Origin: a virus | Virus record (IMG/VR): IMGVR_UViG_3300037434_000034 | Coordinates: 1-56,905 of that record | DNA: 56,905 nt | Reading direction: 5' to 3' (one strand) | Shown: positions 33,333 to 56,356 of the stretch, one piece after another | Position numbering within the stretch: the first letter of the stretch is position 1 | How the letters are laid out: each line of letters begins with the position of its first letter | Notes under the pieces: model-generated | What the model saw: only the letters and a program-made list of their open reading frames with translations | The model's database searches: none | Told to the model about the DNA's origin: nothing | Program-made: the position numbers and the translations under genes

Positions 33333-33334
33333 AT

Positions 33335-33365
33335 AAACCTACTAAGTGTTATACCTAGTAGGTTT
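33335..33365. terminator. Bidirectional terminator between convergent genes
   Basis: A perfect 10-bp stem, AAACCTACTA (33335-33344) with TAGTAGGTTT (33356-33365), lies 2 nt past one stop codon and 27 nt from the convergent gene's stop. A- and T-rich flanks allow termination in both directions. Confidence 0.75.
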
Positions 33366-33392
33366 AGTGGTTTTCGTTACACCCCATACATG

Positions 33393-33665
33393 TTAGGCAG
33401 CAGGAGTAGTAAGTGTTTCCGTTACTGCTGTTAATGATGCAGTTGCTGTGTTGATAGCAGCGACTATAGTGTCCCCTTGAGCAGGTGTGATAACTCCTGC
33501 CTGGTAAGTAGAGAGTGCAGTAGTAAGTGCTGTTACAGCAGTGGTCAGGTTAGTTGTTGCGGTTTCTGTATCTGAAAAAGTGGCCATGATATGTTTTTGT
33601 TTAGTAATGATGACATAAGTTGCTATGAGTATAACTACCAGCAGTATGCAGATGATGTATAACAT
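33393..33665 (-). CDS. Small Thr/Ala-rich protein, possible N-terminal membrane anchor
   Basis: From the ATG at 33665 the product is 90 residues. It has an N-terminal hydrophobic helix (MLYIICILLVVILIATYVII), then a Thr/Ala-rich repetitive region (TTNLTTAVTALTTALSTY, AAINTATASLTAVTETL). A consensus promoter overlaps the three codons upstream, which rules out the earlier in-frame ATG at 33674. Translation from 33665 would need a nearly leaderless message. The ATG at 33587 (MATFSDTETATT) would give a soluble 64-residue protein and an ordinary leader. Both remain possible. Function unknown. Confidence 0.5.
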   Translation of the reverse strand: MLYIICILLVVILIATYVIITKQKHIMATFSDTETATTNLTTAVTALTTALSTYQAGVITPAQGDTIVAAINTATASLTAVTETLTTPAA

Positions 33666-33671
33666 AGGGTA

Positions 33672-33702
33672 CAAAGATATACACTATTATGTATCTACCA
33701 AA
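33672..33702 (-). promoter_or_regulatory. Consensus Bacteroidota promoter
   Basis: On the minus strand TTTG (33702-33699), exactly 19 nt, then TATCTTTG (33679-33672). This is an exact match to TTTG-N19-TAnnTTTG. The predicted start of transcription is near 33666, right at the downstream gene. Confidence 0.75.
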
Positions 33703-33746
33703 AGAATGTTGGTATAATTTTTAAAGAATAGCTATAAACAGTTATT

Positions 33747-33929
33747 ATGACACTTTCACTTGTAGTTATTATTGTACTGATCATCTTAATGGTAATACTT
33801 GGTCTTGGTATATTCGGGTTAATCCCCATGAGCCAGGTAGCTATTAATAGATTGTTCTTTGTACTCTTTGCTGTAATGATCCTGCTGCAGTGTTTAGGAC
33901 AGTATGGGTTTTTACCAAGGACCAGGTAA
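33747..33929 (+). CDS. Small two-helix membrane protein
   Basis: A 60-residue protein made of two hydrophobic helices (LSLVVIIVLIILMVILGLGI, LFFVLFAVMILLQCLG) and a basic C-terminus (FLPRTR). It is a lone plus-strand gene between minus-strand genes and ends at a strong hairpin terminator. It could be a holin-like or superinfection-exclusion protein. Nothing in sequence decides. Confidence 0.5.
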   Translation: MTLSLVVIIVLIILMVILGLGIFGLIPMSQVAINRLFFVLFAVMILLQCLGQYGFLPRTR

Positions 33930-33934
33930 AAAGA

Positions 33935-33964
33935 AAATACCTATCCGGAGATAGGTATTTCTAT
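33935..33964. terminator. Bidirectional terminator
   Basis: A perfect 11-bp stem, AAATACCTATC (33935-33945) with GATAGGTATTT (33950-33960), CGGA loop. It lies 6 nt past the plus-strand membrane gene and faces the minus-strand gene ending at 33993. A-rich and T-rich flanks suit both strands. Confidence 0.8.
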
Positions 33965-33992
33965 TTCAGTGTGCGGACTGAATGTAGAATCT

Positions 33993-34139
33993 TTAGCACA
34001 TCTTTCCACCCTTCTTCATAGAAGACATTCCACCTTTTTTGTAGGTAGGGGGAGTCATTGGAGGAGCCTGTTTCTTGTTCTTAACAGGTGTTACCGGAGT
34101 TGCTGGTTTTGCTGGTTTAATATTTTTTACTGCTGCCAT
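33993..34139 (-). CDS. Very small basic Pro/Lys-rich protein
   Basis: A 48-residue ORF read directly from the minus strand. It starts MAAVKNIKPAKPATPVTPVK and ends in KKGGMSSMKKGGKMC. Lys/Gly-rich C-terminal repeats with a Pro-rich linker resemble small DNA-packaged or internal virion peptides of tailed phages, but the function is not established. A TATCTTTG -7 element lies 30 nt upstream. A GroES-like gene is next upstream. Confidence 0.6.
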   Translation of the reverse strand: MAAVKNIKPAKPATPVTPVKNKKQAPPMTPPTYKKGGMSSMKKGGKMC

Positions 34140-34151
34140 GATCAATGGTTT

Positions 34152-34176
34152 TTATTGTTAACAATAATCAAAGATA
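34152..34176 (-). promoter_or_regulatory. -7 promoter element with adjacent perfect palindrome
   Basis: On the minus strand TATCTTTG (34176-34169) is followed at once by the 16-nt perfect palindrome TTATTGTTAACAATAA (34152-34167), which would cover the transcription start. A clear -33 TTTG is not at standard distance. The palindrome is well placed for a dimeric repressor. Confidence 0.45.
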
Positions 34177-34194
34177 TACAACTTTATCAAATTA

Positions 34195-40062: not shown

Positions 40063-40446
40063 GGGGACGATTGGTTTTGACAGCATGGAGTGAGTAAGAG
40101 TGGCGAAACAGACAATGACAATGAGTCCAAAGCGAATGTGTCAACAATAAAAGCAACATCTGAAAAGATTGCTCGTCAGAATGAAGGTGATCGCATCATA
40201 AATGCGTGTTTTGCTAATGATTTAGTTGAACTATATGACGGTTCTTTTGCTGAATCAGAATTAATAGCAGCCTAAAGTTCAAACCCACACGATATGGGTC
40301 AATAGTCGTCTAAGGGTAGGTAACAGCCGTAAAAACAAGGAACAGTTACAAAAGCATACCTGAAGACAGCAGGAATAAAACTAGTCATGATCGTAACTAC
40401 TCCAGGAACACATGTTTGGACCCGGGTTCGACTCCCGGCGTCTCCA
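40063..40446 (+). ncRNA. ssrA: Transfer-messenger RNA (tmRNA)
   Basis: The 5' end GGGGACG (40063-40069) pairs over 7 bp with CGTCTCC (40439-40445), one G-U pair. The 5' D-loop-like stretch TTGGTTTTGACAGC and the 3' T-arm CCGGG-TTCGACT-CCCGG complete a tRNA-like domain. The 3' end continues ACTA rather than ACCA, so CCA is probably added after processing. An open tag frame ends ...GSFAESELIAA then TAA at 40273-40275. The likely resume codon is GAA after TTTAGTT, giving ELYDGSFAESELIAA; GGT is an alternative, giving GSFAESELIAA. A CGCAT/ATGCG hairpin upstream could be pseudoknot 1. tmRNA rescues stalled ribosomes and tags nascent proteins for degradation. Identity is firm; exact tag start is not. 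Confidence 0.93.
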
Positions 40447-40485
40447 CTACTGCAGTCAAATGGCTGTAAGTATTCGCCACAATAA

Positions 40486-46406: not shown

Positions 46407-47090
46407 ATGGCTACTCAAATATTTAAAAGTTACAATGACTTTCTTGATAGAGAAGATAAATCTATCAATGGTGTTTCAGAATATTTCTCTCAAGAGAATT
46501 CTAATTGGGAAGAAATGAATATGACAAATGATTCCTGTTGGGATTGTTCAGGTTGTTCACGTTGTTCAGGTTGTTCACGTTGTTCACGTTGTTCAGATTG
46601 TTCACGTTGTTCAGGTTGTTCAGGTTGTTCACGTTGTTCACGTTGTTCAGATTGTTCACGTTGTTCAGGTTGTTCAGGTTGTTCACGTTGTTCAGGTTGT
46701 TCACGTTGTTCACGTTGTTCAGATTGTTCAGGTTTATATATACAAATTAATATCAAAAATAATGAATTACCTACTCTCAAAATACCTGTTATAGAAAATA
46801 TTCATCAAAAAGTATTAGCTGCAGTTTCTTTACCCAACTCTTTCGATATGAGTAGTTGGCATACTTGTGAAACTACTCACTGTAGAGCGGGTTGGGTAGA
46901 ATATTTAGCAGGAGTAGAAGGTAAAACCTTAGCTGAACAAACATCTACAGAATTTGCAGCAATGATGATCTACAAAGCCTCATCTAACATACCAGTTGCT
47001 CCAGTTAGATTCTATGAATCAAATGAAGTAGCGATGAAAGATATTATCCGTTGTGCTGAATTAGAAAAAGCAGGCAGTGAGAAGTCATAA
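46407..47090 (+). CDS. Cys-Ser-X tripeptide-repeat protein
   Basis: A 227-residue protein. Residues 47-109 are 21 uninterrupted units of Cys-Ser-X with X being Gly, Arg or Asp, encoded by 9-bp DNA repeats. The C-terminal domain (residues about 130-220) reads FDMSSWHTCETTHCRAGWVE ... NEVAMKDIIRCAELE, which I recall in other phage and bacterial proteins but cannot name. The Cys array could bind metals or fold as a regular three-residue helix. The repeat is in frame and its unit keeps frame when it expands. It ends before a strong terminator. Confidence 0.7.
   Translation: MATQIFKSYNDFLDREDKSINGVSEYFSQENSNWEEMNMTNDSCWDCSGCSRCSGCSRCSRCSDCSRCSGCSGCSRCSRCSDCSRCSGCSGCSRCSGCSRCSRCSDCSGLYIQINIKNNELPTLKIPVIENIHQKVLAAVSLPNSFDMSSWHTCETTHCRAGWVEYLAGVEGKTLAEQTSTEFAAMMIYKASSNIPVAPVRFYESNEVAMKDIIRCAELEKAGSEKS
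46545..46733 (+). repeat. Tandem 9-bp repeat, 21 units, in coding sequence
   Basis: Unit TGTTCAxxx with xxx being GGT, CGT or GAT. A higher-order block of six units (G-G-R-R-D-R order of third residues) recurs, suggesting duplication of larger blocks. Confidence 0.9.
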
Positions 47091-48164: not shown

Positions 48165-50231
48165 ATGGAAGATCTGAAAGTAGAGGTGCTTGATATAGAA
48201 ACCTTGCTCCGGTGTTATTTGGTATGTTCTTATTGCCCCTCGACAGGTGAAAAGTTCCAGTTTGAAATATCTAGAAGAAAGAACCAATTGGATGGTTTGA
48301 TAAAGCATTTACTCGATTTTAAGAGAGATTACATAGTCGATTATAATGGTCTTACATTCGATGGCCAGGTTCTGCAATATACAATTGATAACTACGAATC
48401 TTTTTCAGATCTTTCGGCAGAACAAATAGCAGAAAAGATATCCAACTTTGCTGCAGAGTGTATAGATAGACAGAAGTATGAGCTAAAACAGGTGTATAAT
48501 CCTAACTATATGGACTTTTCCCAAATAGATCTTCTGAAGGTCTGGCACTATGATAATCGTGCTCGTAGGACCAGTTTGAAGTGGTTGGAATTTACTATGG
48601 ACTTCCCCGATATAGAAGAAATGCCAATAGACTTTCGTAAGGACTATTTGACTGATGAAGAGATAGAAGATACCATAAAGTACTGTTGGAATGATGTAAT
48701 GGCTACATATGAATTCTATAAAATAACCAGAGGTGACACACAACTAGAACTGTATCGGGGAAAGGATAAGATACAGGAACGCCTGGATGTAATGGAAGAG
48801 TTCGGTTTCGGAAAAGAATGTCTGAGTTGGTCTGATGTAAAAATAGGAGATGAGATCAATAAGAAAGGATATATGGAAGAGACTGGATGTAGTTATGGTG
48901 ATTTGTATAAGAAGAAGAAAAGCAGAAAACCTACTCCTCACTTCACTTTCGGAGACTGCATACCAGAGTATGTAAAGTTTCAGACCAAAGAGTTTAACAA
49001 TTTTCACAACTCTGTAAAGGGGAAAACTGTAAATCTCAACAAGACTAAACAAACATTTGAGTTTAGATATGGAAAGACAAATTACATCATAGCTCAAGGG
49101 GGTATTCATAGTGTTGACAAACCAAGGATAGTTACTGCAGATGAAAAACGTATTAAAAAAGATGCTGATATAGGTTCACAATACCCAAATGCAATTAATA
49201 AGAGATGTTTGTATCCGTCACAATTAGGAAAGCCTTGGAATACCAGATACGAAAAGACTACTCACCAACGAATAAATTATAAGTCAAGAGGTAAGGAAAA
49301 CAGAAAATTCAAGAGTCTTGCTGAAATGTACAAGCTCTGTTTAAATGGGGGTGGTTTCGGAATGACATCTCAAAAAGACAACTGGCAATACGATCCGTTT
49401 GTAACATTTGCCTGTACTATAGGTAATCAGTTTGAGATATTAATGTTAATAGAAGCATTGGAGATGTCAGGTATATCAGTAATATCAGCTAATACGGATG
49501 GCATTATTAGTGACATTCCCCGCGAGTTGGAAGATAAGTACTATGAAATATGTCATGAATGGGAAAGGAATGTAGGTAATGACAAAATAGGTATGCTGGA
49601 ATATGCGGACTATAAAAAGTTAGTACAGACATCAGTGAATGATTACCTTGCTATAGGGGTTGATGGGAAAGTAAAACTCAAGGGAGACTTCGTAACAACT
49701 GAGATAGAGTTACACAAGAATAAAAGTAATCGAATATCCCCGATAGCAGTATATGAATACTTTGTTAATGGTACTCCAATAGAAGAAACAGTAAGGAATC
49801 ACCGTAGAATATATGACTTCTGTATTGCCAAAAAGGCGTCCAAGGACTACTTCTACAGACAAGTAGATCGAAAGTTAGGAACTGCCAGGGATCTTAACAA
49901 ACTTGTCCGGTACTTCTGTGCAAAATCTCCTGATACCAAGTTAGATACTAAGTTGTCAGAAGAGGATGAAGTAACTTATCTGCTCCCGGGGAAATTATAC
50001 AAGATCAAACATGAGAATAGCGAAAAAACTGGTCCTAAAGTAAGTCAATGTGAATCAAGCAGTGGTTGTCAACAGTTATTTAATAGATACTATGAAGTAA
50101 AGAACTGGGAAGATTATAATATTGATTATCAGTATTATATAAATAAGGCAAATGAAATAGTTGATAAAGTTGACCCTGTTTTTAAGAGAGATAGAAAACT
50201 TAGAGAAAGTGGAGCGATATTATTATTCTAA
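48165..50231 (+). CDS. Family B DNA polymerase with 3'-5' exonuclease
   Basis: A 688-residue polymerase. Exonuclease motifs: LDIET (9-13), DYNGLTFDG (59-67) and YCWNDVMATYEFY (173-185) with Asp177. Polymerase motif A is DADIGSQYPNA near 333-343. Motif B is KLCLNGGGFG (390-399). Motif C is SANTDGII (441-448), with Asn in place of the usual first Asp of DTD. It is shorter than many cellular B-family enzymes and may lack part of the thumb. It should be the phage replicative polymerase, working with the DnaB-like helicase at 55187. Confidence 0.9.
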   Translation: MEDLKVEVLDIETLLRCYLVCSYCPSTGEKFQFEISRRKNQLDGLIKHLLDFKRDYIVDYNGLTFDGQVLQYTIDNYESFSDLSAEQIAEKISNFAAECIDRQKYELKQVYNPNYMDFSQIDLLKVWHYDNRARRTSLKWLEFTMDFPDIEEMPIDFRKDYLTDEEIEDTIKYCWNDVMATYEFYKITRGDTQLELYRGKDKIQERLDVMEEFGFGKECLSWSDVKIGDEINKKGYMEETGCSYGDLYKKKKSRKPTPHFTFGDCIPEYVKFQTKEFNNFHNSVKGKTVNLNKTKQTFEFRYGKTNYIIAQGGIHSVDKPRIVTADEKRIKKDADIGSQYPNAINKRCLYPSQLGKPWNTRYEKTTHQRINYKSRGKENRKFKSLAEMYKLCLNGGGFGMTSQKDNWQYDPFVTFACTIGNQFEILMLIEALEMSGISVISANTDGIISDIPRELEDKYYEICHEWERNVGNDKIGMLEYADYKKLVQTSVNDYLAIGVDGKVKLKGDFVTTEIELHKNKSNRISPIAVYEYFVNGTPIEETVRNHRRIYDFCIAKKASKDYFYRQVDRKLGTARDLNKLVRYFCAKSPDTKLDTKLSEEDEVTYLLPGKLYKIKHENSEKTGPKVSQCESSSGCQQLFNRYYEVKNWEDYNIDYQYYINKANEIVDKVDPVFKRDRKLRESGAILLF

Positions 50232-50242
50232 AAAATTAAGTT

Positions 50243-50839
50243 ATGTCAAGAACAATAGAATCAATTAAAGAGAATGAGGTGGTTTGGTGCAAATCCCCCG
50301 AAGAGGCGAAAGAGTTTTGTAAGTTACTTGCTATTGCAGGGAAAAGAACGAGAAATGGCGATAGTTATGCCATAGTTGTAAATAATCATATCGGTGAATT
50401 ATGTTACAATATTAGTCGGGGCGCATGTGGAGATAGACCGTTTTATGAACAGGAATTAAAAATTATTACCCCCGCTACAGAGTTTATAGAAGATCAGCAA
50501 AGTGATCCTATATTAACACCCGATCATCTAGGAATTTACAAACAGGGTCAGGAAGCAAAAAAAGAAGGAATACCTAAAAGCGATAACCCTTATATAGGAG
50601 TTGTTGGTAATGCTGAGAAAATATGGTCGGATGGATATGAAAGTGTAAATAACTTAGTAAAAATATCCTATGTACAAGTGAAAAGTGTTCCTTATCAACT
50701 ATGTCCAATGTGTCATGGAGAAAAACAAATAGTTAGTAGTTTAAGAAGGTCGCAAGATGGACAAGTACAATCATCAATAACGATAAAGTGTCACATCTGT
50801 AAAGGGGAAGGTATTATCCCTCAATTTGTAATAGAGTAA
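50243..50839 (+). CDS. Zinc-binding protein with DnaJ-type CxxCxG motifs
   Basis: A 198-residue protein. The C-terminus has CPMCHGEKQIV and CHICKGEGIIP, the paired CxxCxG zinc motif of DnaJ. The middle resembles ADQQSDPILTPDHLG-type linker sequence. The N-terminal half is alpha/beta (NEVVWCKSPEEAKEFCKLLA). It lies 11 nt after the polymerase gene, which suggests a replication or repair role. Unknown family overall. Confidence 0.6.
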   Translation: MSRTIESIKENEVVWCKSPEEAKEFCKLLAIAGKRTRNGDSYAIVVNNHIGELCYNISRGACGDRPFYEQELKIITPATEFIEDQQSDPILTPDHLGIYKQGQEAKKEGIPKSDNPYIGVVGNAEKIWSDGYESVNNLVKISYVQVKSVPYQLCPMCHGEKQIVSSLRRSQDGQVQSSITIKCHICKGEGIIPQFVIE

Positions 50840-50855
50840 CTAAAAACAAAAACTC

Positions 50856-52133
50856 ATGAAATATTTAAAAATTACTAATAAAGGAGAAATTGATTGGCGG
50901 TTAATCTCCTTGTTAGGGGGAACTACAAAAAGAGAAAATAGTGCAGCTATTGGTAGATATGGATCAGGTCTGAAGTATGTATTGGCATTTCTTTTACGGG
51001 AAAACCTTGCGTTCAAAATATTCTCCGGAATAAAAGAAGTAGTAGTATCAGTAGATACAGAGAGTATACGAGGTGAAGAGTTTGATATCATCTGTATAGA
51101 TGGGCATAGAACCTCAATAACAACTAAAATGGGGCCTGATTTTCAGACATGGCATTGTGTAAGGGAATTGTGGAGTAATGCCATAGATGAAGGAGAGAAT
51201 AGCTGGAGCATAGGATCAGAAGTTTCCCCGGTAGCAGGTATGACACACTGGTATATCCAGTTAGATAAACAGATACAAGAAGTTATTAAAGATTGGGATA
51301 AGTACTTCATTCATCATCAAAAACCCTTGTGGGGAAATGAGTACTACAAAATTTATCCTGGTGGGCAGTCTCTAAGAATATACAAAAGTGGTGTTCTTGT
51401 ACATGAAGATACCAGTAAACCAGCACTGTTCGCATATGATTCTATGTTAGCAGAGATAAACGAGTTACGTGAGTTCAAGGGTTCTCAAAGTTGTGCAGTA
51501 GTACATGCTTTATCAGAAAGTAATGAGGATGTTGCTAAGTACTTTTTCGAGAATATCAAAGAAAATATGTACGAGGGCGATATGGACTGGAATTGGTTTG
51601 TGGGTTCCTGGTCAGAGGACTGGAAAAATGTGTTGGGAGATGCTAAGTTGATATACCCGAAAGCAATGGATGATATAAAGAGCAAGGGGATAACTCTGGA
51701 CGAAGTAAAATTGATAGTAGTACCACAATGCGTATATAAAGAACTAACTAAGTTCTTTCCTGGTATAGGGGCACTAAAAGCAGCAGATAAAAGTAGTCAG
51801 TTTTATGAAAATTATGATGAGAAGTTAGAGTTCCGGGTAAAACAGTGTTTGGCTATTCTGGAAACTTGTGAATATGTAATGCATCCAGAGTTAGAGTTTC
51901 GTTATGGGTTCTTTGAAGATAAAGGAACTATGGCAAGAGTTAACCTGGATGAAAAGATAGTATACATAAGCCAAACCATGCTCAATAAATCACTCTTTGA
52001 CATAACAGCAATGTTAATAGAAGAGAATGAGCATTTTAACACAGGATTGACAGATGAAAGTCGTGCGTTTCAACAGCACTGGATAAATCTCTACACAAAA
52101 GAGTTACTTACCCGGCATGAGGTAGAAGTTTAA
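50856..52133 (+). CDS. GHKL-type ATPase-like protein with a C-terminal histidine motif
   Basis: A 425-residue protein. IGRYGSGLKYVLAFL near residues 32-46 resembles the GHKL G-box, and HCVRELWSNAIDEGE near 92-106 resembles the N-box (E..NA.DEG) that binds ATP through Mg. The order of these boxes is reversed relative to MutL, Hsp90 and gyrase. The C-terminus has MLIEENEHFNTGLTDESRAF, a His-containing motif I recall in related phage proteins. The enzyme may be an ATP-driven switch or repair protein. No confident family. Confidence 0.6.
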   Translation: MKYLKITNKGEIDWRLISLLGGTTKRENSAAIGRYGSGLKYVLAFLLRENLAFKIFSGIKEVVVSVDTESIRGEEFDIICIDGHRTSITTKMGPDFQTWHCVRELWSNAIDEGENSWSIGSEVSPVAGMTHWYIQLDKQIQEVIKDWDKYFIHHQKPLWGNEYYKIYPGGQSLRIYKSGVLVHEDTSKPALFAYDSMLAEINELREFKGSQSCAVVHALSESNEDVAKYFFENIKENMYEGDMDWNWFVGSWSEDWKNVLGDAKLIYPKAMDDIKSKGITLDEVKLIVVPQCVYKELTKFFPGIGALKAADKSSQFYENYDEKLEFRVKQCLAILETCEYVMHPELEFRYGFFEDKGTMARVNLDEKIVYISQTMLNKSLFDITAMLIEENEHFNTGLTDESRAFQQHWINLYTKELLTRHEVEV

Positions 52134-52152
52134 AAATAAAGTCAGAGAAAAG

Positions 52153-52183
52153 TTTGCATAATTAAAAACAATGTGTAATTTTG
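52153..52183 (+). promoter_or_regulatory. Consensus Bacteroidota promoter for the structured RNA
   Basis: TTTG (52153-52156), exactly 19 nt, TAATTTTG (52176-52183). This is a full match to TTTG-N19-TAnnTTTG. The predicted start, near 52190, falls just before the first helix of the RNA. Confidence 0.85.
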
Positions 52184-52189
52184 TGTTGT

Positions 52190-52663
52190 CAAGTGGACCC
52201 TTGGAAAGCACTCTTGACAGAAACTTACTGAATTAATTCCCCTAGACAGGAGAATGCAGATAAAGAATAACCTCAATCAGAACCTTCCAAGGGTCCATAC
52301 GATTGGGGTTTTCTTGTTCTGTTACTAATCCTCATGATACCTGTAAACGAGTATAACCAGGTAAATTAATAACACAGTAAAACCAGAAAGTCTATAGGCT
52401 GCAGTAGATCCTGTAAGATTTAGCTAACTATAGAAATAAGAATGGATGTTGTGAAATTTCCTGCTCTGTGTGTAACTTCACAACAGGACCTCGTGAGAAC
52501 TGTAAATGCAGCATCCCCCCGAAGTCGAGGGAACATAGATTAAGAAGCTATGAGGTTGAGGTTGGTACTGAATTGAAAAGAAGATACTCAAATAACTCTT
52601 CTTGAACCTACTGAGAGTACCTCAAACCCCTTCGGGGTAAAAAGGGAAGGTCTCACGAGGGAA
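52190..52663 (+). ncRNA. Large structured noncoding RNA of unrecognised class
   Basis: No ORF of useful length in about 470 nt, yet many long perfect helices: TGGACCCTTGGAA (52194-52206) with 52285-52297 (13 bp); CCTCGTGAGA (52489-52498) with 52651-52660 (10 bp); TGTTGTGAA (52447-52455) with 52477-52485 (9 bp); TCTATAG (52391-52397) with 52428-52434; TACCTG (52338-52343) with 52358-52363; AAGAAGA (52578-52584) with 52597-52603; TTGAGGT (52556-52562) with 52619-52625; and ACCCC-TTC-GGGGT (52626-52638). It has its own promoter. It resembles large ornate phage RNAs in style (GOLLD or ROOL), but I do not see their sequences, nor group I, group II or RNase P signatures. The 3' end is not fixed; it could also act as leader to the genes after 52700. 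Confidence 0.75.
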
Positions 52664-52699
52664 AAAGTTCTTATCAAAATAAGTGTAAGTGTAAAACGT

Positions 52700-52906
52700 A
52701 TGGAAAACGAACTAATAGAAGTAGAAATAACTGTCAGTAAGAAAAACAAATTCAAGTTACTGGTAGATGAGTATACAGCAAGTAATTTACAGGCATGTAT
52801 AGATAACTGGAGTATGAGAACAAATAAGTATACACAGCAGTCATTAGCAGACTATATAAATAGTAAGGATTATGCAGGATGTAAAGCAAAAATAATAAAA
52901 TCGTGA
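52700..52906 (+). CDS. Small early hypothetical protein
   Basis: A 68-residue protein (MENELIEVEITVSKKNKFKL), strand-rich then helical, with a basic C-terminus (YAGCKAKIIKS). It starts about 40 nt after the structured RNA. Unknown. Confidence 0.48.
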   Translation: MENELIEVEITVSKKNKFKLLVDEYTASNLQACIDNWSMRTNKYTQQSLADYINSKDYAGCKAKIIKS

Positions 52907-52909
52907 GTT

Positions 52910-53146
52910 ATGGTAATAACAAATGAAATAGTTACAAAAGCAGAAGAGTTAGAAGAAACTTTTCACGCACAAATAAATCAGGTAATAGAGAAAGGAAGTA
53001 GTGCTGTTAGTTATGAAAGTATGAGATCAGCAGTAGTTAATCTCAAATTAGCAGAACTGGAGTTACGTATAGAGAAACTGGAAAATGGTAAAGTAGATAA
53101 ACTTTCCCCCTCAGAAGCAAGTGAACTTTTAAAAGATATTAAATAA
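52910..53146 (+). CDS. Small helical early protein
   Basis: A 78-residue coiled-coil-like protein (MVITNEIVTKAEELEETFHA, LKLAELELRIEKLENGKVDK). It starts 4 nt after the previous stop. Unknown. Confidence 0.5.
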   Translation: MVITNEIVTKAEELEETFHAQINQVIEKGSSAVSYESMRSAVVNLKLAELELRIEKLENGKVDKLSPSEASELLKDIK

Positions 53147-53166
53147 CAATCAAAAAATCAAAAACA

Positions 53167-53454
53167 ATGTTAAAAACACCAAGTACACAGCAATTAGTAG
53201 AAGTAGCTAATGAAGGACTCGTAGCACTTTTAGACCAAAATGTATTAATCTTTTGTTTTAACTATTTCTATTATGGTAAATTAGTAGGAGTAAATGATAG
53301 TTGTATAAAACTGCAAAATGTATATCAGGTATTTGAAACTGGTGCGTTTAGTGATAGTAAGTACAAAGATGCTCAAAAGTTAGCAGAAGAATGGTATATA
53401 CAGATATCAGCAATTGAAAGTTTTGGTAAATCGTTTAAGGTTACTTCTCTTTAA
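53167..53454 (+). CDS. Early hypothetical protein
   Basis: A 95-residue protein (MLKTPSTQQLVEVANEGLVA). ILIFCFNYFYYGKLVGVNDS-like strands and a C-terminal LAEEWYIQISAIESFGKSFK suggest a small beta-barrel (Sm/PilZ-like) domain. No family confirmed. Confidence 0.5.
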   Translation: MLKTPSTQQLVEVANEGLVALLDQNVLIFCFNYFYYGKLVGVNDSCIKLQNVYQVFETGAFSDSKYKDAQKLAEEWYIQISAIESFGKSFKVTSL

Positions 53455-53464
53455 AACTAATTTT

Positions 53465-53668
53465 ATGCAAATAGCAAGTAGGCCACATGCAAATAGATAT
53501 AGGTCAAGGTCAAGGTCAGGGTCATGGTCATGGTCATGGTCAAGGTCAGGGTCATGGTCATGGTCATGGTCAAGGTCAGGGTCATGGTCATGGTCAGGGT
53601 CAGGGTCAGGGTCAAGGTCATGGTCATGGTCAGGGTCAGGGTCAAGGTCAGGGTCAAGGTCAGTATAA
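53465..53668 (+). CDS. Dipeptide-repeat protein on a hexanucleotide minisatellite (reading frame uncertain)
   Basis: From the ATG at 53465, which follows a typical AATTTTATG leader, the product is 67 residues. It begins [12 protein letters not shown], then runs of Arg-Ser, Gly-Ser and Trp-Ser. A second ATG at 53487 in another frame, in the same local context (ATGCAAATAG is duplicated 22 bp apart), gives a 64-residue Gly-Gln/Gly-His repeat ending YKKFL. In that frame the A/G changes of the repeat are silent, which favours the Gly-Gln/Gly-His frame. Either may be translated. Function unknown. Confidence 0.4.
53502..53663 (+). repeat. Tandem hexanucleotide repeat, 27 units
   Basis: GGTCAx with x being A, G or T, perfectly in phase over 162 nt. 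Expansion or loss of units keeps every reading frame open. Confidence 0.95.
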
Positions 53669-53714: not shown

Positions 53715-54323
53715 ATGAACTTAATAGATATAAACGAATCGCAAATTAAAGCTTTAAGTAAAGTTTCTCTTAACCTCACACACTTTTGGTTACTACACCT
53801 ACTCTCGGGGGTAGATACAGTAGTATATATCCCCCAGATAAGAGAAAGAAAGTTATTAGAAGATAGAGGGTTAATTAGTAAGAAAGGTATCCTACCAGCA
53901 GGGGAAGCGTTTTATAAACAGATATGTGATACTAAGTTAGAAACCCCCGTGAGTAAGAAAGTGAAGGAAGAGGCAATAGATAATGGTTTTAGTGAGTTCT
54001 GGAATAGTTATCCAGCAAGTGCTAACTTCTCATATCGGGGAATGACATTCAAGTCAGAGAGAGCCTTAAGAAGCAATAAGCAAGTATGTGAGATGCTATA
54101 CAACGCAGCTATCTCTAAAGGGGAAGTAACCAAAGAACAGATACTGGCAGCACTTAAATACCAGGTACGGGAAGCAAAAGAAGCAAGTTTTAAAACAGGT
54201 ACAAATAAGCTACAGTTCTTCCCTGGGGTAGAACCCTATTTGAGACAAGAAAAGTATATGGCTTTCATAGAAGTAGCTACAGAACATTCAGATGAACAAC
54301 CAAGTGATTCTTGTTGGGCATAG
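53715..54323 (+). CDS. Candidate helicase loader / replication protein
   Basis: A 202-residue protein. The N-terminal part looks like a winged helix (LNLTHFWLLHLLSGVDTVVY, ERKLLEDRGLISKKGILPAG). FSEFWNSYPASANFSYRGMT carries the FW-x-x-YP motif seen in phage replication proteins that load DnaB. A helical domain follows (ILAALKYQVREAKEASFKTG) with LQFFPGVEPYLRQEKY. It lies two genes upstream of the DnaB-like helicase, consistent with loader function. Inferred. Confidence 0.58.
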   Translation: MNLIDINESQIKALSKVSLNLTHFWLLHLLSGVDTVVYIPQIRERKLLEDRGLISKKGILPAGEAFYKQICDTKLETPVSKKVKEEAIDNGFSEFWNSYPASANFSYRGMTFKSERALRSNKQVCEMLYNAAISKGEVTKEQILAALKYQVREAKEASFKTGTNKLQFFPGVEPYLRQEKYMAFIEVATEHSDEQPSDSCWA

Positions 54324-54344: not shown

Positions 54345-55028
54345 ATGGATATAGCAATAATAGCACAGGAGAAAATAAATAAACTTGTGTCAGATGGTTC
54401 AATAGACACCATGATAGAAACACAGATAAAGAAAACACTGGAATCAACAATAAGTGATGTATTCAGGGAATATAGTGATTTTGGTAAGGATTTGAAAAAG
54501 GTAATCAGCGATAAGTTAAAAGTTAACCTTGAACAAATTGATATTCCCCTATACAGCAATAAAATAATGCAGGTTATAAAAACTACATTGGTGGCAACTG
54601 CATTAGAACCATCCATAAAAAGGATACAGGAATCAGTAAATAGTTGTCTTAATCAAATAGAAAAGAAGAACTGGAAATTGTCAGAGATCATACGAAAATA
54701 TCTAAATGACAATTATGGAAATGAAGATGCTACCTATGAAACAACAGAACCTGAATATAGTAGTTTCTGGGTCAATATAGGGAATAAAAAAGCATCATAC
54801 AGTTATGGTACTAAAAATGATAAAGATCTACGGTTAATAGTAGACAGCAAGACAAATGTGATCAGGAATGTATGGTATCAAAATAAGCCCCTGAATGGTT
54901 TAAAAGTAGATAGGTTATACAATTTTGAAATGTTCCTAATGGGGTTATGGATAAATGAATGTGTACTGGAAATAGATGAAGATGAATCCGATGAAGCCTG
55001 TATAAGAGAAAATGAATGTCACTGTTAA
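54345..55028 (+). CDS. Hypothetical protein in replication cluster
   Basis: A 227-residue protein. The N-terminal half is helical (DIAIIAQEKINKLVSDGSID, SVNSCLNQIEKKNWKLSEII). The C-terminal half is strand-rich with an acidic end (EIDEDESDEACIRENECHC) and several Cys. It lies between the loader candidate and helicase genes. Function unknown. Confidence 0.55.
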   Translation: MDIAIIAQEKINKLVSDGSIDTMIETQIKKTLESTISDVFREYSDFGKDLKKVISDKLKVNLEQIDIPLYSNKIMQVIKTTLVATALEPSIKRIQESVNSCLNQIEKKNWKLSEIIRKYLNDNYGNEDATYETTEPEYSSFWVNIGNKKASYSYGTKNDKDLRLIVDSKTNVIRNVWYQNKPLNGLKVDRLYNFEMFLMGLWINECVLEIDEDESDEACIRENECHC

Positions 55029-55040
55029 AAATCAAAAATT

Positions 55041-55190
55041 ATGTACATAGTAATAGAATGTTGGCCTGATGCAGAACATGCAGAAATAGTAAGTGTACCA
55101 GAAACAGGTTGGAACAAAACATTTGATACAAGAGAGGAAGCACAAGAAGAAGTTGATGATTGTCAAAATGGAATAATAATAGAGATATGA
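55041..55190 (+). CDS. Small acidic protein overlapping the helicase start
   Basis: A 49-residue ORF read directly (MYIVIECWPDAEHAEIVSVP ... NGIIIEI). Its TGA overlaps the helicase ATG (ATGA at 55187-55190), implying translational coupling. It is strand-helix mixed and acidic. Unknown. Confidence 0.5.
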   Translation: MYIVIECWPDAEHAEIVSVPETGWNKTFDTREEAQEEVDDCQNGIIIEI

Positions 55191-56356
55191 GTTTAAGCTC
55201 CGAGTTAGATCATCAAATACAAGTAGCAAGGAAAGGTAAATCAGGAGTAATCCCTGTAGCATACAATCGTGTAAAAGATTATATAGACATTGCTAAAAAC
55301 ACACTCTATAGTATAGCTGGAGAAACAGGTGTAGGTAAAAGCACCCTTGCTGTTGATATGTTCCTAGTAAATCCGATTATGTGGTATCTGGCTAATAAAA
55401 ACGACAATATCAAACTATCGGTTATCTATCTGTCAATGGAGCGAAAGTTGTATATGATGACCAGCCGAATTATCAGCAGATTGATCTATGAGGAACAAGG
55501 TATAGAAATTCCCCCGAAGAAGATATTGGGCCGTAATGGGGGGTATCAATTAACAGATAGTGAATATGCCTTAGTACAAGAGTATTACAAACGAATAGAT
55601 GAATGGGAAAAGGACGATGTGTTGATATGTCAGGAAGGTTCAAAGAATAGTACCGGGATAAGTATGTTCCTGGAAGAGTTTGCTAAGAGAAATGGTAAAA
55701 TAACACTAAAGGATAAAGAAGATAAGAGTTATGAGAACATCCTGGCAAAACCAAAAACATACGAACCAACTCACCCAAATCATATAGTAATTATCATCAC
55801 TGATCATATAGGTATCTTAACCCCGGAAGACAAGGGTGCAAAAACAAAGAGTACTATAGATGTATTCAGTAGGGTAATGAGGGAAGCAAGGGATGTATAT
55901 GGGTTTTCCCCGGTAATAGTGCAACAGATGAATAGAAACCTCTCAGATGTACATAGACATAAAATGGGGGAACTAAAACCTAAGTTGAGCGACATCGCCG
56001 ATAGTTCAAACACTAGTCATGATTCCGATGTAGTCATTATTCTACATGACCCCTTGAGGCATAATGGGGAAGTTAGAGAAGCAGGTTTTGATGTTAAACG
56101 ATTTAAGGATAAATTTCACAGGAATTTTTATAGATCATTGCACATAGTTAAGAACAGTTTTGAGGCTTCTGACGTACCTTTCCCAATGGGCTTTCATCCA
56201 ATTTACGGTATGTTAGCCACACTACCTCGAGGGGATAAAATTACGGAAGATATCTACAGAGAAGTATTATCAGGTCAGTACTTTCTTAGTAATGGGGATA
56301 GTCAAGAGAACATCGAAGAACAAGTTAAAAAACCATTTAAGTTTGGACAAAAATAA
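55187..56356 (+). CDS. DnaB-like replicative helicase (SF4)
   Basis: A 389-residue protein from MSLSSELDHQIQVARKGKSG. The ATG at 55187 overlaps the previous stop and is preferred to an upstream TTG at 55160. Walker A is GETGVGKST (45-53). SVIYLSMERK follows as motif H1a. Walker B is VIIITDHIGIL (201-211). FSPVIVQQMNR is motif H3, and DSDVVIILHDP is H4-like. The N-terminal primase-interaction domain of bacterial DnaB is missing, as in several phage helicases. It should unwind DNA at the fork with the family B polymerase. Confidence 0.87.
   Translation: MSLSSELDHQIQVARKGKSGVIPVAYNRVKDYIDIAKNTLYSIAGETGVGKSTLAVDMFLVNPIMWYLANKNDNIKLSVIYLSMERKLYMMTSRIISRLIYEEQGIEIPPKKILGRNGGYQLTDSEYALVQEYYKRIDEWEKDDVLICQEGSKNSTGISMFLEEFAKRNGKITLKDKEDKSYENILAKPKTYEPTHPNHIVIIITDHIGILTPEDKGAKTKSTIDVFSRVMREARDVYGFSPVIVQQMNRNLSDVHRHKMGELKPKLSDIADSSNTSHDSDVVIILHDPLRHNGEVREAGFDVKRFKDKFHRNFYRSLHIVKNSFEASDVPFPMGFHPIYGMLATLPRGDKITEDIYREVLSGQYFLSNGDSQENIEEQVKKPFKFGQK

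Follow-up and report, generated by a model that had tools for sequence, protein, structure and literature searches.

The replication locus and its non-coding gap

The window (the whole stretch of DNA analysed here, 56,905 nt) is IMG/VR virus record IMGVR_UViG_3300037434_000034 and is taken as a fragment of a phage genome, since sister contigs run more than 9 kb beyond its end without further match to it. Within a rightward gene block, 566 nt without a credible gene separate a 425-aa ORF from a 68-aa ORF, and this gap holds the putative structured RNA considered here. The features of the replication module are the following, with positions counted in the window:

48165-50231: DNA polymerase
50856-52133, + strand: upstream ORF, 425 aa, phrog_8203
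52153-52183, + strand: Bacteroidota-type promoter TTTG-N19-TAATTTTG, a match to a consensus string
52188-52663, + strand: putative structured RNA, about 475 nt, non-coding
52700-52906, + strand: first downstream ORF, 68 aa, no assigned family, 36 nt past the RNA end
53715-54323, + strand: replication-initiator-like ORF (weak match)
54345-55028, + strand: ORF among the downstream replication genes
55160-56356, + strand: DnaB-like helicase

The first-pass annotation had described the RNA as free of ORFs, and our list of reading frames of at least 40 aa agrees with that description in that the only frames overlapping the RNA are 44 to 55 aa long, namely 45 aa with a GTG start on the + strand (52468-52605) and 44 aa (52142-52276) and 55 aa (52588-52755) on the - strand, none of them a convincing gene. 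Further downstream, Pfam and PHROGs gave no family match for the three ORFs at 52700-53454, and the 78-aa ORF at 52910-53146 shows seven differences from the sister contigs (six non-synonymous and one synonymous) in comparison to none in the 1.2-kb helicase gene. An array of 26.8 copies of the hexamer GGTCA(T/A/G) lies at 53502-53662, just before the replication-initiator-like gene; it could be either iteron-like or part of a repeat protein, and it is one of the few differences between sister contigs downstream of the RNA. Another tandem array, with 9-bp and 27-bp periods, is found at 46544-46734 inside the ORF at 46407-47090.

The 425-aa protein has eight relatives in bacterial genomes, and the better ones (43% to 53% identity) carry mostly Bacteroidota titles, such as Chitinophagaceae MAG, Bacteroidetes MAG, Deminuibacter and Niabella (the last two of which we take to be Bacteroidota), along with one uncultured bacterium, so that a Bacteroidota host is likely for this phage; three weak relatives were titled as other phyla. 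The profile search of solved structures returned nothing for this protein. Its structure model (mean pLDDT 71, pTM 0.54) matched Hsp90 chains weakly over its length in the fold search, with a best E of 4.3e-04 and a low TM-score, and small archaeal metallopeptidases of the selecase kind with a Foldseek probability of 1.00 and E of about 1e-03. Together with a reading of its motifs, these matches weakly suggest an Hsp90-like GHKL N-terminus followed by a selecase-like small-metallopeptidase region.

The promoter reported by the first-pass annotation was located at exactly the positions listed above. As a string it is weak, with six matches in the window in comparison to 2.6 expected and 1 of 100 shuffles with at least six, and it is the sole + strand match of the consensus scan beyond 42674. 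In Bacteroidota the promoter consensus is given as TAnnTTTG at -7 and TTTG near -33, the -33 box not being found in Flavobacterium, according to the part of PMC7366714 that we cite. The position of the boxes would place the transcript start at or near 52188.

Folding of the RNA and a diverged allele of its 5' domain

The exact Watson-Crick search recovered the three long perfect helices listed previously, with 13 bp at 52194-52206/52285-52297, 10 bp at 52489-52498/52651-52660 and 9 bp at 52447-52455/52477-52485, in comparison to 1 of 200 dinucleotide shuffles with a 13-bp helix and 1 of 200 with at least three helices of at least 9 bp. The 9-bp helix is absent from the minimum-energy fold, where its strands are paired otherwise. 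The minimum-energy fold of 52313-52668 alone contains 10 predicted helices of at least 5 bp, consistent with the previous count of at least eight. The minimum free energy of the whole RNA was -127.1 kcal/mol, which is moderately low (z -2.24, 1 of 100 shuffles as low), and the best local fold of eight sub-stretches was 52255-52325 around hairpin P3, described below (z -5.5, 0 of 200 shuffles as low). When 471 windows of 481 nt each were scanned, those over the RNA all fell outside the 25 with the lowest GC-corrected energies. A helix of at least 12 bp was present in 14 of them, three of these lying over the RNA, and the window as a whole holds other helices of 12 to 16 bp. The overall folding energy of the RNA is thus ordinary for this phage genome, and the helix counts are modest evidence, insufficient by themselves as a case for an RNA, which is supplied by the comparison with a second allele. 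The same scan gave its lowest and second-lowest GC-corrected energies (z -3.5 and -3.0) for the windows starting at 33481 and 33601; the gap at 33333-34194 between the leftward and rightward gene blocks, which contains an 11-bp helix, is a candidate for a second structured RNA or a control region.

The second allele is carried by contig 3300030020_000071 (L010/L015), which belongs to the same phage lineage and differs from the window by 13 substitutions, gaps uncounted, from 52319 to the window end, and by zero substitutions from the sister contig L011 past 52319 in the regions listed. Ahead of the junction at 52319, it carries a cassette in which the 198-aa ORF is mosaic, the 425-aa ORF gives way to a 554-aa homologue, and the 5' domain of the RNA has diverged, with 39 substitutions in 125 nt (about 31%) plus indels, while the 3' part of the RNA is unchanged. 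The exchange, with 50213-52318 of the window corresponding to 128-2994 of the contig, looks like a recent cassette replacement in phages that are otherwise nearly identical. The 554-aa protein differs from the 425-aa protein in its C-terminal part and contains a stretch that weakly resembles PRiA4_ORF3 and scores under the Pfam cut-off. The 5' domain has the following predicted elements, all on the + strand:

52188-52193 with 52213-52218: hairpin P1, 6 bp, whose 19-nt loop carries the 5' strand of P2
52194-52206 with 52285-52297: P2, a loop-to-loop helix of 13 bp (12 in L015), crossing P1 and P3
52236-52255: small hairpin AUUC-CCU/AGG-GAAU with one C-A mismatch, between the kissing hairpins (in L015 a 6-bp AUUCCC/GGGAAU)
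52257-52259 with 52319-52321: CAG/CUG at the P3 base
52269-52278 with 52301-52310: hairpin P3, 10 bp, whose 22-nt loop carries the 3' strand of P2

The results showed that 28 of the 29 window pairs in P1, P2 and P3 are kept in the second allele, all as standard pairs, with four changed on both sides, four changed on one side, one missing on both sides and none broken; the count is fitted to the structure, since the strands were registered by hand from helices found in each allele, and it comes from one comparison of two alleles. In P1, GUCAAG/CUUGAC became GUCAAU/AUUGGC, through a both-sided change of GC to UA and a one-sided change of UA to UG. In P2, GC to AU and UA to GC were both-sided, and the pair absent on both sides is a CG pair. 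In P3, AU to GC was both-sided and three changes were one-sided via G-U. The covariation check proposed with the first-pass annotation therefore leaves a fold standing for the 5' 135 nt or so. P1 and P3 together contain four G-U pairs, one of them in the window and three in L015; these would become A-C mismatches on the opposite strand and, along with the promoter, support the + strand as the probable RNA strand. Both promoter boxes are retained as well, at 2836 of the diverged allele, with an 18-nt spacer unrelated to the 19-nt spacer of the window.

To judge how easily such helices survive by chance, we used 20000 random mutants, each changed at 39 of 125 nt by substitution alone and with uniform bases. 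Of these, 53 retained P2 at 12 bp or more, 361 retained P3 at 9 bp or more and 1076 retained the 6-bp P1, in comparison to one mutant with both P2 and P3 and none with all three. The 5' domain has P2 as its longest helix in either allele, at 14 bp each when the neighbouring pair or pairs are counted; P3 ranks second in L015 and third in the window, where an unshared 11-bp helix is longer. The linkers flanking P2 are also similar, with 0, 6, 6 and 3 nt in the window in comparison to 1, 5, 5 and 3 nt in L015. The two-sequence MAFFT alignment, on which P1 and P2 could not be placed, showed one both-sided change, a number reached by 246 of 500 shuffles and hence without power; in it, 97.4% of cells were paired in comparison to 32% to 53% for slid versions, as expected for a structure drawn from the same sequences. 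An alternative 8-bp helix at 52269-52276/52556-52563 was discarded, as by its letters it would be lost in the swapped allele.

Calculated as a duplex, P2 has -23.3 kcal/mol in the window and -19.2 kcal/mol in L015. When nested models that all included the small hairpin were compared, P2 gave -22.3 in comparison to -15.8 for P1 and P3 together, and since P2 outweighs them a switch between P2 and P1 plus P3 may be possible. The topology is very likely a kissing-hairpin pseudoknot at the extreme 5' end, that is, two hairpins whose loops would be paired over 12 to 13 bp. Because P1, P2 and P3 are kept by compensatory change and the promoter boxes are kept around an unrelated spacer, the 5' domain of about 135 nt is, with high confidence from the two alleles, a conserved RNA fold under selection. 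The natural swap onto a nearly identical genome further suggests that this domain could fold without matching changes in the 3' domain.

The 3' domain is predicted from its minimum-energy fold, with the following elements on the + strand:

52322-52663: 3' domain, predicted structure
52391-52397 with 52428-52434: 7-bp helix
52489-52498 with 52651-52660: 10-bp helix
52578-52584 with 52597-52603: 7-bp helix
52626-52638: hairpin ACCCC/GGGGU

The copies differ beyond 52318 within the RNA at two substitutions (52591 and 52643), and since they are nearly identical the 3' domain is uninformative on covariation. It may be a second structured domain, less certain than the 5' domain.

Distribution of the RNA and search for known families

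The RNA was found in four records, which comprise three different sequences (the window, 3300029914_000181, 3300028854_000088 and 3300030020_000071), so that the collection of homologues recommended earlier did yield a diverged 5' allele. Two copies 99.6% identical to the window and the swapped contig are all the copies found in the viral-contig and genome-contig scans, in which the viral-contig searches may omit records very near the window; the loci L001/L011/L016/L021, L002/L013/L017/L022 and L010/L015/L023/L028/L090/L091 are repeats of three contigs. A further contig of the same phage, 3300028909_000138 (L012), stops short of the RNA, since its match to the window begins at 53646.

Three patterns built from loop letters common to the two alleles, which would miss homologues with other loops, gave known copies along with chance stretches. 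The pattern TTCCAAGGGTCCATAC gave five stretches (two known copies and three by chance), GAATRCAGATAA...TCAGAAC gave eight (three known and five without similarity), and GGAAAG...CAGATAA...TCAGAAC gave 51, of which 50 were examined, the known copy L022 being left out; among the best 12 of these 50, the longest P2-like helix was 9 bp apart from two known copies. A covariance model, R1, was built from P3, the small hairpin and the three basal pairs of the 5' domain, with P1 and P2 left out. On 30 sources, only the window and L015 were convincing; the next match (26.5 bits, E 0.016) was the opposite strand of the same place, and the remainder had E of at least 2. On the records behind 16 loci, many of them fragments, R1 matched one, the L010 contig, and one of the other 15 was L012; a DNA query on the same 16 records gave a match at E up to 1 in six, with only the L010 contig credible. 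In the sampled Bacteroidota genomes, R1 matched 0 of 396 from the host order and 0 of 395 from the phylum (under stricter filters and without a positive control), and the 3' domain DNA matched 0 of 396 (also without a positive control). The blastn search of phage records gave 22 records with short matches covering 4% to 6% of the query at E of 2 to 7.

In six relatives (L003-L008, 44% to 58% protein identity), no copy of the RNA was found behind the upstream gene, suggesting that the 425-aa gene is not an obligate partner of the RNA. Likewise, no RNA match came from related phages that have a homologue of the polymerase or of the upstream gene, which argues that such replication modules do not generally need it. 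The searches did not find the donor of the swapped 5' domain, in which a related RNA would be expected as far as the junction or beyond. The known distribution of the RNA is narrow.

For known families, we used the 4227 covariance models of Rfam 15, presumably including those of GOLLD and ROOL. At the gathering score, the only match in the whole window was the tmRNA at 40063-40447, a phage tmRNA gene with the tag ELYDGSFAESELIAA. To E 10, 52100-52720 and the second allele gave no GOLLD, no ROOL and no fitting family, and 52100-52720 gave no group I or group II intron, RNase P RNA or tmRNA match; the matches to freshwater-1, DdR5, snoR77Y, RAGATH-25, Anti-Q and mir-2208 were rejected as all far below their own gathering scores. 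The earlier statement that the RNA has no recognised family is thus upheld at both thresholds. No tRNA was found in the window, itself a fragment, and the tmRNA stands alone, 12 kb from the RNA. Our literature search, in which the candidates of PMC8040213 were judged by their description, found no account of the RNA. That study reports 3161 candidates for structured RNAs in human microbiomes; 28 lie close to integrase, sortase or phage domains, and one, neighbouring phage-related domains, occurs mostly in Bacteroidetes.

Possible roles of the RNA and comparison with known systems

We favour, at a probability of roughly 0.48, the reading of the RNA as a structured 5' leader of the phage replication operon over that of a free GOLLD- or ROOL-like RNA. 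The consensus scans place a promoter at the 5' end and find, on the + strand between the RNA and the 52700 ORF, neither a terminator-like site nor a promoter of either type scanned for, which makes a leader the simplest reading. Against it stand the length, as about 475 nt is longer than usual phage leaders, the lack of family matches for the three ORFs that follow, the failure to match the RNA in related phages, and the fact that the terminator scan is a simple consensus scan. As a leader, the RNA would be transcribed from about 52188, and its first 135 nt or so would fold alone into the P1 and P3 hairpins, with loops joined by the 12- to 13-bp P2, locking the 5' end; a second structured domain would then follow and stop 36 nt short of the operon's first ORF. 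This lock may protect the transcript 5' end and pace folding, the 3' domain may set what portion of the operon undergoes translation or read-through, and the RNA and the replication operon would be co-transcribed. The natural swap of the 5' domain suggests that the 5' cap is a module acting on an unchanged 3' part. A search for antisense targets within the phage was also made and put aside, with 0 direct and 3 antisense 13-mers in comparison to about 0.8 expected for both together.

The main rival, which we regard as a real possibility though the less probable of the two, is a free-standing large structured phage RNA of the GOLLD or ROOL style, abundant in infection and possibly self-assembling, with P2 joining two copies and the 3' end made by processing. 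The promoter boxes just ahead of the first helix in both alleles, the length with its multi-helix prediction and the lack of a convincing ORF would all fit such an RNA, as would the kissing loops that, in the cited portion of PMC12286853, are assembly contacts of GOLLD and ROOL. However, the absence of a GOLLD, ROOL or fitting Rfam match to E 10, of a tRNA in the window and of a terminator-like site before the next gene speaks against it, as does a folding energy ordinary for this phage genome, and P2 could also form inside one molecule. Of the overall reading in the first-pass annotation, a promoter-preceded structured RNA without an Rfam family has stood, now with a 5' domain held by compensatory changes; its extension as one ornate RNA over all 470 nt and the free-standing GOLLD or ROOL style have not been borne out. 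A bolder and, in our opinion, unlikely extension is a modular class of phage RNA in which an autonomous 5' kissing-hairpin cap with a 12- to 13-bp loop-loop helix moves between phages as a cassette along with the upstream gene while the 3' domain stays, and in which P2 would pair between molecules for an RNA-only assembly in the replication compartment.

We consider it highly improbable that the element acts as DNA in the replication module, for example as an origin with hairpins: its location between the DNA polymerase and the initiator-like and DnaB-like genes and the hexamer array that follows would agree with this, but P2 crossing P1 and P3 suits single-stranded RNA, the G-U pairs of P1 and P3 favour a + strand RNA, the promoter faces the element, and the cumulative GC skew turns near 33 kb rather than 52 kb. 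Least probable of all is a leftover non-coding spacer with helices by chance or drift and no selected fold, which the unexceptional overall energy and the narrow distribution would allow, but which would have to account for three crossing helices surviving about 31% substitution when none of the 20000 random mutants keeps all three.

To our knowledge, phages have yielded few large structured RNAs of unknown function. For the present RNA, which lacks an Rfam family and heads a replication operon, the natural domain swap is direct evidence of a 5' kissing-hairpin fold. The RNA is small enough for probing and structure solution, and it is an added candidate for how Bacteroidota phages may guard or regulate early transcripts.

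Among known systems, the favoured leader reading is closest to the manA and wcaG motifs, which the consulted part of PMC2864571 gives as structured RNAs upstream of cyanophage genes; the likeness is that of a structured RNA upstream of phage genes, whereas no known motif is matched here and no terminator or ribosome-site switch is recognised. GOLLD is likewise phage-encoded, large, structured and of unknown function, but many of its members exceed 800 nt in comparison to about 475 nt here, in a gap of 566 nt between the flanking ORFs, and both GOLLD and ROOL, the latter in phages or prophages, are frequently located near tRNA islands, in contrast to a window with no tRNA and an RNA with no Rfam match. 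The less conserved 5' region and conserved 3' region of GOLLD, as described in the portion of PMC12286853 used here, superficially resemble the swapped 5' and constant 3' parts of this RNA, although here the constancy of the 3' part comes from recent shared ancestry or recombination and not from deep conservation. The likeness to ROOL lies in a phage-encoded RNA with pseudoknots and kissing loops, going by the same portion of PMC12286853.
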